Origin: Virgibacillus doumboii
Lineage (GTDB): Bacteria > Bacillota > Bacilli > Bacillales > Amphibacillaceae
Length of the DNA: 64,000 nucleotides
Assembly: GCF_902806455.1 (NCBI RefSeq)
Contig: NZ_CADCWQ010000001.1
Coordinates: forward strand, 1,798,001 to 1,862,000
Direction of reading: 5' to 3'
Both the position numbers and the translations under genes were made by a program. The notes below the pieces were generated by a model. The model searched no databases and had not been told where the DNA came from. It worked only from the letters and a program-made list of their open reading frames with translations. Each line of letters opens with the position of its first letter. Within the stretch, counting starts at the first letter, position 1. Positions 62,333 through 64,000 of the stretch are shown one piece after another.

Positions 62333-62566
62333 CTAATGTTTTTTATTTCTTTCCTGCAACTCTCTCACTTTTTTAGGTGTAACATCATTGCCTTCACGAT
62401 CCATTACTGTCATTGATTTAAATTGATTTTTAAATGACTTTCTCACATTTTTCAGGTATTCTTGTCTAAGTTCTTTTTGTTCTTCCTTTTCTTTATCTGT
62501 TAAACCCCCATTTTTGGATTTATGGGCCAGTTCATTAATACGTTCCAATTTTTTCTTCGATATCAT
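62333..62566 (-). CDS. ynzC: DUF896 protein YnzC
   Basis: The 77-residue highly charged helical-hairpin protein begins [18 protein letters not shown], the DUF896 (UPF0291) signature. The ATG at 62566 follows AGGAGG. In B. subtilis ynzC is part of the LexA-regulated yneA-yneB-ynzC operon; here a hairpin at 62594-62618 lies between yneB and ynzC. Confidence 0.93.
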
Positions 62567-62593
62567 ACGAAAACCTCCTAAGAACAAATAAAA

Positions 62594-62618
62594 GCAAGAA
62601 CAAATTCAATGTTCTTGC
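62594..62618 (-). terminator. Hairpin between yneB and ynzC
   Basis: The 9-bp perfect stem GCAAGAACA / TGTTCTTGC has a 7-base loop and is followed by TTTTATTT on the minus strand. It probably ends most yneB transcripts or attenuates ynzC. Despite its GAAC/GTTC arms the spacing is wrong for a LexA box. Confidence 0.7.
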
Positions 62619-62627
62619 CTTCTAATA

Positions 62628-63290
<663 letters not shown>

Positions 63291-63306
63291 TTACGCTCCT
63301 TATATG

Positions 63307-63402
63307 TTATGCGCTGGTTACCATTGAAAAATATAAAAACCCTAATGCAAATGCAAATGCAACTAAATAGAATACATCTGTTTTCGTAATTTTTTCAAAC
63401 AT
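63307..63402 (-). CDS. 31-residue single-span membrane peptide in the yneA position
   Basis: This gene is too short for most predictors. It starts at ATG 63402 nine bases after AAAGGG and ends TAA, giving a peptide that begins MFEKITKTD, has one hydrophobic helix (about residues 10-28: VFYLVAFAF...FSM) and ends SA. It lies between lexA (divergent) and yneB and is the first gene after a promoter with two LexA boxes. B. subtilis YneA, at the same place, is about 105 residues with a transmembrane helix and a LysM domain and blocks division during SOS; this peptide keeps only a transmembrane helix. Confidence 0.65.
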   Translation of the reverse strand: MFEKITKTDVFYLVAFAFALGFLYFSMVTSA

Positions 63403-63429
63403 GTAAATCAGCCCTTTCATATTAAATAA

Positions 63430-63441
63430 GAACTTTTGTTC
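63430..63441. promoter_or_regulatory. LexA-type box just downstream of the peptide promoter -10
   Basis: GAACTTTTGTTC is a perfect GAAC-N4-GTTC palindrome, located about 14 bases past the TATAAT of the leftward promoter, in the transcribed leader of the 31-residue peptide gene. Confidence 0.7.
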
Positions 63442-63454
63442 GCATCTGTCTACT

Positions 63455-63482
63455 ATTATATACGAACATATGGTCTTGTCAA
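63455..63482 (-). promoter_or_regulatory. Consensus sigma-A promoter of the peptide-yneB operon with LexA-like box in spacer
   Basis: On the minus strand TTGACA (63482-63477), 16 bases and TATAAT (63460-63455) make a fully consensus promoter. The spacer contains the degenerate box GAACATATGGTC (63464-63475 on the + strand), one mismatch from GAAC-N4-GTTC. Strong promoter plus LexA control fits an SOS-induced operon. Confidence 0.8.
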
Positions 63483-63490
63483 TAGTTTTT

Positions 63491-63530
63491 CGAACGAATG
63501 TTTGCTTTTTGCTGTGGCAAATGGTAAACT
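63491..63530 (+). promoter_or_regulatory. lexA promoter with LexA box abutting the -35
   Basis: CGAACGAATGTTTG (63491-63504) matches the LexA consensus exactly and overlaps the -35 TTGCTT (63502-63507), which is followed by 17 bases and TAAACT (63525-63530). This is standard autorepression of lexA. Confidence 0.85.
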
Positions 63531-63566
63531 ATCATTAATAAATCCTATGCGCGAGGTGTTTGATAG

Positions 63567-64000
63567 ATGAATAAACTTTCTAAAAGGCAGGAAGCAATAC
63601 TCGAATATATTAAAGGAGAAGTAAATAAAAAAGGCTATCCACCATCTGTGAGAGAAATTGCAGAAGCAGTTGGCCTTGCCTCCAGTTCAACTGTACACGG
63701 TCATTTGGCAAGATTGGAAAGCAAAGGATTCATTCGAAGGGATCCTACTAAACCGAGGGCAATAGAGGTTTTGGATCAATCGGAAGAGAGTCATATTCCT
63801 AGAGAAGAAGCTCGCTATGCACCTGTTATTGGTAAAGTTACAGCTGGTATTCCAATAACTGCCGTTGAAAATATTGAAGAGTTTGTTCCATTACCAAATT
63901 CAACTGCGGGACCCGATGATAATCTTTTTGTGTTGATTATTGAAGGTGAAAGTATGATAGAGGCTGGTATACTTGATGGGGACATGGTAATTGTCAAACA
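63567..64000 (+). CDS. lexA: SOS repressor LexA (3' end outside window)
   Basis: The visible 144 residues contain the N-terminal winged helix ([33 protein letters not shown] in part), the self-cleavage site VTAGIP (A93-G94) and the catalytic Ser129 in EGESM; the catalytic Lys lies beyond the window or at its edge. RecA-stimulated self-cleavage relieves repression of the SOS genes. The start ATG 63567 follows AGGTG. It is divergent from the 31-residue peptide and yneB, as lexA is from yneA in B. subtilis. Confidence 0.96.

Follow-up and report, generated by a model that had tools for sequence, protein, structure and literature searches.

A single-helix membrane peptide in place of YneA behind LexA-type operators in Virgibacillus doumboii and its family

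In Bacillus spizizenii and other Bacillus species the SOS division inhibitor YneA, a protein of about 105 residues, is encoded between lexA and yneB and divergently from lexA. The same gap in the stretch of Virgibacillus doumboii DNA analysed here (64,000 nt in length, referred to as the window) holds a divergent frame of 31 codons. Is so short a frame a gene, is its product what remains of YneA, and could a peptide of this size act on cell division? A literature search, with preprints and most subscription papers outside its scope, found no report of the peptide, and frames so short are easily overlooked.

The frame and its control region

The frame lies on the minus strand, where it runs from an ATG at 63402 to a stop codon at 63309-63307 (63307..63402 with the stop) and encodes MFEKITKTDVFYLVAFAFALGFLYFSMVTSA, 31 aa. 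This confirms, at its place between lexA and yneB, the single-span membrane peptide frame proposed in a preliminary description of the window. A Shine-Dalgarno-like AAAGGG (63412..63417, minus strand) is found 9 nt 5' of the ATG, and a purine-rich stretch precedes the peptide start in 35 inspected loci. An alternative in-frame ATG at 63420 would give a product of 37 aa, but the Shine-Dalgarno sequence then falls inside the extra stretch; given this position and the start in relatives, we prefer the 31-codon start. The divergent lexA gene (63567..63998, plus strand; TIGR00498, 163.8 bits; Pfam LexA_DNA_bind) is cut by the window end. Downstream, 19 nt after the peptide stop, begins the resolvase-like gene yneB (62628..63287, minus strand; NF049883, 351.8 bits against a cut-off of 175), whose product is 79-80% identical to YneB of two Lentibacillus species. 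A ynzC-like DUF896 gene in the same orientation follows (62333..62575, minus strand; 80 aa; PF05979, 3.8e-30), for which the ORF list gives an earlier beginning, at TTG 62587, and after it comes a 667-aa frame that by eye looks like a transketolase. We take the gene order in B. subtilis to be yneA-yneB-ynzC-tkt.

The sequence of the peptide fits one membrane helix with about five residues outside. Residues 1-9 have a net charge of zero, no charge is found after residue 9, and the best 19-residue hydropathy is 2.18. The lysines precede the helix, and the N-terminus is therefore predicted to be inside. Unlike YneA, the peptide has no LysM part, as had been stated from the sequence: the frame ends about five residues past the helix and matches no Pfam model, nor does it match any NCBIfam model.

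The promoter is of full consensus, with TTGACA at -35 (63477..63482), TATAAT at -10 (63455..63460), both on the minus strand, and a spacer of 16, giving 12/12 matches to the sigma-70 consensus and bearing out the preliminary description. Its count of two LexA-type boxes falls short by one, as three lie within one mismatch of GAAC-N4-GTTC. Box 1 (63492..63503, one mismatch) is on the lexA side, box 2 (63464..63475, one mismatch) lies inside the spacer, between -35 and -10, and box 3 (63430..63441), downstream of -10, is perfect (GAACAAAAGTTC). When the 164-nt leader of the window was base-shuffled, three such boxes arose in 0/20,000 shuffles. The same elements recur across the 36 peptide loci described below, window included: the -35 within one mismatch in 36/36, the -10 in 35/36, and all three boxes within one mismatch in 36/36, box 3 being perfect in each. 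Counted from the start of lexA, the boxes of these loci stand at about 63, 90-94 and 120-145 nt. Single perfect sites are uninformative in this genome, since GAAC-N4-GTTC occurs at 23 places in the host against 32 for the backwards control, and the operator argument therefore depends on the conservation of all three boxes from locus to locus, not on lone sites. From this conserved layout we infer that the peptide gene would be controlled by LexA itself.

Some of the 23 perfect sites precede frames that by eye resemble a Y-family polymerase and a YolD-like protein. A perfect LexA-type box (G000:C1:905874-905885) also lies 19 nt 5' of a 314-aa frame that by eye is homing-endonuclease-like.

Conservation and the relation to YneA

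The preliminary description had looked to relatives for the frame and its start, and both are conserved there. A scan for YneB in named genomes gave 55 loci and, with the window, 56 lexA-yneB gaps; in 36 of the 56, window included, a homologue of 30-35 residues is encoded in the same place and orientation. These come from Oceanobacillus, Virgibacillus, Lentibacillus, Halobacillus, Terribacillus, Sediminibacillus, Thalassobacillus and Ornithinibacillus, together with one MAG; a relaxed extraction pattern yielded 35 of them (a stricter one, 21) and one, L019, was added by hand. Coding selection was evaluated using 28 unique 31-codon sequences, with the 30- and 35-residue forms and L019 excluded. 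The pN/pS ratio is 0.36 in the peptide frame (mean pS 0.71, pN about 0.27) and 0.57-1.36 in the other five frames, and differences per site at codon positions 1, 2 and 3 are 0.32, 0.22 and 0.51. Given a ratio of 0.36 and boxes kept in 36/36 loci, the frame is not due to chance; by the pattern of its substitutions it is a gene for a small, predicted membrane peptide.

In 33 of 35 loci inspected the end of the peptide frame and yneB are 15-60 nt apart, a spacing that would suit a functionless peptide whose frame serves as a leader for coupled translation of yneB. We regard this as very improbable. Selection acts at the level of the amino acids, and related peptides are encoded in phage-like regions away from lexA-yneB (see below). 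Further, the distance to yneB is 256 nt in Lentibacillus salicampi (L002) and 554 nt in Oceanobacillus sp. J11TS1 (L055).

Alignment of 30 of the 36 peptides (L008, L014, L023, L024, L026 and L028 omitted) shows D9, F16 and Y24 to be invariant and M1, F2, K4, Y12, L20, F22 and L23 nearly so. Over the helix, residues 9-27, conservation is one-sided (permutation p 0.0029, best angle 95 degrees; 29 alignment rows, L015 excluded). D9, Y12, F16, L20 and L23 form the conserved face, with Y24 at its edge and F22 and K7 off it. Such a pattern is to be expected of a helix that packs against another protein.

One-sided conservation, like the position at yneA, speaks against a toxin in the manner of TisB or DinQ of Escherichia coli, which would depolarise the membrane and slow growth without being a division inhibitor. 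The helix of TisB, a peptide of similar size, is amphipathic and charged. The peptide does not share these properties, having a hydrophobic moment of only 0.11 over residues 9-27 and no charge beyond residue 9. The likeness lies in control and size: DinQ and TisB are SOS-controlled membrane peptides of under 30 residues, and DinQ, at 27 aa, is described as LexA-controlled, two operators lying over its promoter (PMC3567139). Both are also subject to antisense RNA control, whereas none was seen here in two weak tests: no Rfam match around the peptide gene reaches its family cut-off, and a scan of 62400-63946 that also missed lexA's own promoter gave no promoter-like site on the opposite strand. 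Such a toxin is quite unlikely.

We next consider the distribution of the peptide and of LysM-type YneA. A profile of the peptide matches 137 of 159 genomes of the host family (E <= 0.01), in 36 of the 46 genera sampled. In a class-wide sample of 398 genomes there are seven matches at E <= 1e-4, all from members of the host family; the 391 other class genomes gave no match at this threshold, and neither did 31 genomes of the order's other families. YneA has the opposite distribution. Its profile finds nothing in the host or the 158 other family members (E <= 1e-6), where the preliminary description had left room for a true yneA elsewhere, although in many genomes only part of the candidates was scored (up to 30 per genome in the family, 12 in the order and class). 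The 18 LysM matches of the host all fall in frames of at least 203 aa. Among the order's other families YneA is matched in 28 of 31 genomes (E <= 1e-5); two of these 28 stretches contain stop codons, yet LysM frames occur there. Across the class it is matched in 211 of 398 (E <= 1e-5), many of the weaker matches possibly being other LysM proteins. The peptide replaces YneA in most of the host family.

Of 11 further loci, one being the host itself and at least one sharing a genome with a named locus, ten link the peptide to lexA and yneB and the remaining one is a mobile copy. Family genomes that lack a peptide match number 22: 11 have yneB over the family cut-off and 11 have none that reaches it, and by eye no peptide-like frame is present at the 11 yneB loci. 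One genome among the 137 (G070; L146, about 1378-1475) has a copy that looks broken, with promoter and boxes intact. The gene is thus conserved but dispensable, being absent from 22 of 159 genomes and apparently broken in one.

Many small membrane peptides act as regulatory subunits, and a one-sided helix face suits any membrane partner; a damage-induced subunit of some other membrane protein (a transporter, protease or kinase), unrelated to division, is accordingly a reading to be weighed. It is unlikely: the peptide occupies the locus, operators and start region of a division inhibitor and, among the sampled genomes, is confined to a family without YneA.

The anatomy of the locus points instead to YneA. 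The three-box layout, over and downstream of the promoter, is common to the peptide loci, 12 LysM-yneA loci and a locus of Siminovitchia thermophila, and box 1 is within one mismatch in these 13 comparison loci as well. The lexA-yneB gap measures 479-497 nt in 12/12 yneA loci and 275-318 nt in 34/36 peptide loci, the two remaining peptide loci having insertions in the gap. Because start codon and operators are similarly placed in both, the difference in length corresponds roughly to the LysM-coding part. From the arrangement of the operators, the start region and the spacing to yneB, the peptide is probably the membrane segment of a YneA that lost its LysM-coding 3' part. On the same grounds the independent, SidA-like origin suggested in the preliminary description is probably not correct.

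The profile comparisons are marginal. A first hhalign alignment of the peptide with YneA N-termini gave a probability of 3.3% and E 0.013. A second, using 32 of 38 YneA N-termini (four with cut starts and two from outside the order were dropped), gave 15.4% and E 0.0017, a result equalled or bettered by 13/300 column permutations and one in which the register is off by one from the key YneA residues. The yneA alignment comprised nine of the twelve yneA frames, with L038, L042 and L054 omitted. With YneA numbering fitted to a 105-residue Bacillus YneA, the register of the 3.3% alignment sets K5, F10, V11 and F14 opposite K7, Y12, L13 and F16 of the peptide, so that the lysine, aromatic and aliphatic residues with which YneA docks on FtsW have counterparts in the peptide; E6 stands opposite T8, one residue before the invariant D9. 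Changing any of K5, E6, F10, V11 or F14 to alanine nearly eliminates YneA toxicity, according to PMC13396833. Descent from YneA is likely from anatomy, while similarity at the level of sequence profiles is marginal.

Other variants occur at the position of yneA. Siminovitchia thermophila (L051 2793-2978) has a 61-residue frame there, with one hydrophobic stretch and without a LysM core, possibly a third form. In relatives from Ectobacillus and Gottfriedia (L044-L050) lexA and yneB are just 136-192 nt apart, and neither YneA nor the peptide is encoded between them. The yneA frame of a Bacillus mojavensis record (L042) stops early, at 77 aa from its ATG, through strain variation or sequencing error.

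Copies in mobile elements

Second copies of the peptide are found at a minimum of 15 places in 13 family genomes, one with an in-frame stop, and two IMG/VR viral contigs each carry a copy. A PHROGs search with ten neighbour proteins from seven loci (six genome loci and L143) returned a primase, an excisionase-like protein, a repressor, two anti-repressors, a Sak-type annealing protein, two integrases and an SbcC-like protein, and left one of the ten without a match. These support prophage-like or viral surroundings at L129, L130, L132, L136, L137, L140 and L143, while L128, L133-L135, L139 and L144 were judged phage-like by eye. The copies at L127, L131 and L141 lie near frames that by eye resemble serine resolvases and are possibly borne by plasmids or integrative elements; inspection by eye found no evident phage gene near L138.

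A profile built from 14 of the 17 mobile copies (omitting L133, which is the same as L132, L139 and L140) finds the window peptide with E 1.6e-11 and matches 134 of 159 family genomes (E <= 0.001); in a class sample of 299 it finds only four genomes, all from the host family. The shared core is roughly K-T-D-x-F-Y-x3-F-x2-T-L-x-F-L-Y, and the mobile copies are mostly without the N-terminal MFxK part. None of the 17 copies has a LexA-type box with up to one mismatch in the region from 250 nt upstream to 80 nt downstream of the start point used. Searches with the window peptide (tblastn, phage and plasmid records) and with a 29-aa viral copy (phages) gave no match, which for such short queries shows little.

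A possible parallel for the prophage copies is Gp11 of the staphylococcal phage phiNM1, a small membrane protein of the phage, expressed early, that prevents division of the host; it differs in its 53 aa and two predicted helices and in acting on MurG and DivIC (PMC11237401). One could picture a family that cut its SOS inhibitor down to a bare helix of 30-31 residues stopping FtsW with no domain for wall binding, and phages and other mobile elements carrying the helix free of LexA control to stall division of the infected host. We hold this fuller picture to be possible but doubtful.

FtsW as a possible target

Small SOS-controlled membrane division inhibitors that adjoin lexA are a kind already known; new here is a form with a single helix and no LysM that is widespread in a family and has mobile relatives. 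SosA of Staphylococcus aureus is, like the peptide, single-span, without LysM and next to lexA, and is under SOS control, but it has 77 residues and a long, essential outer C-terminal part where the peptide has a few outer residues (PMC6851548). In size the peptide is closer to SidA of Caulobacter crescentus, a 29-aa membrane peptide from another phylum that blocks division by interacting with FtsW (PMC4211646); SOS control, known for SidA, is suggested here by the operators. For YneA, PMC13396833 describes a membrane segment that docks on TM7 of FtsW and a LysM part that is needed to block septal wall synthesis.

These data allow us to propose a mechanism. DNA damage would lead to cleavage of LexA and the peptide would then be made from its strong promoter. 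It would insert in the membrane and pack its conserved face onto a protein of the divisome, with TM7 of FtsW as the likeliest site, and this docking would slow septal wall synthesis until repair is done. As to how inhibition could proceed without LysM, the simplest guess is that FtsW/FtsI would be held in an inactive state, as by SidA. Both FtsW as the target and division delay as the outcome are drawn by analogy with YneA and SidA. We lean slightly towards the explanation as a whole, in which a YneA-derived, SOS-controlled peptide docks on FtsW and delays division; that an SOS peptide docks there by its conserved face and delays division in the manner of SidA has, in our estimate, roughly an even chance.

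The doubt about inhibition comes from YneA itself, since in B. subtilis the segment alone is inactive: as reported in PMC13396833, YneA lacking LysM localises and binds FtsW, is non-toxic and does not inhibit division. The peptide may likewise dock on the divisome without blocking division, so as to modulate, mark or protect FtsW during SOS, for example by competing with another inhibitor. We consider this fairly unlikely. Conservation covers the whole peptide up to its outer end, FLYFSM-TS, and the core recurs in mobile elements, both of which suggest an active effect; moreover YneA, the one second inhibitor looked for, was not found in the host (E <= 1e-6).

We compared FtsW from eight genomes, four bearing the peptide and four bearing YneA (L190-L193 and L195-L198). 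The proteins that we took to be FtsW were chosen among the SEDS paralogues by gene neighbourhood, each genome's best-scoring match being another paralogue. Host FtsW keeps the TM7 proline and has alanine at the V204 position, and in the Halobacillus compared the P206 position is threonine; these two substitutions, at the sites of the published TM7 variants V204F and P206L, count against the proposed explanation. The proline does not discriminate, being kept in three of four genomes in either group. FtsW in the four peptide genomes, host included, is without seven residues directly after TM7, where FtsW of the four YneA genomes has no gap of more than three residues; the observation comes from four genomes of one clade.

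DdcA is an antagonist of YneA, and we also considered its loss alongside LysM. This was rejected, as a homologue is present in 71/71 genomes (E <= 1e-10), including three genomes of the order without a YneA match. The query was taken from beside leuD in two Bacillaceae and is presumably DdcA/YsoA. Being present in all 71 genomes, DdcA is neutral evidence.

Recent work on YneA of B. subtilis (PMC13396833) did not settle how binding to TM7 of FtsW leads to inhibition, the YneA segment alone being inactive there. In 36 of the 46 genera sampled, nature seems to have kept a segment of this kind under a full set of SOS-type operators. If the bare helix stops FtsW, an essential wall polymerase of the SEDS type would have a minimal natural inhibitor that works within the membrane, and the family would have kept by vertical descent an SOS checkpoint protein of about SidA's size. 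Otherwise, the SOS response of this family would use a divisome-docking peptide for another purpose. The copies in mobile elements add a phage-host angle to either outcome, and the peptide may show how little protein suffices to pause division.
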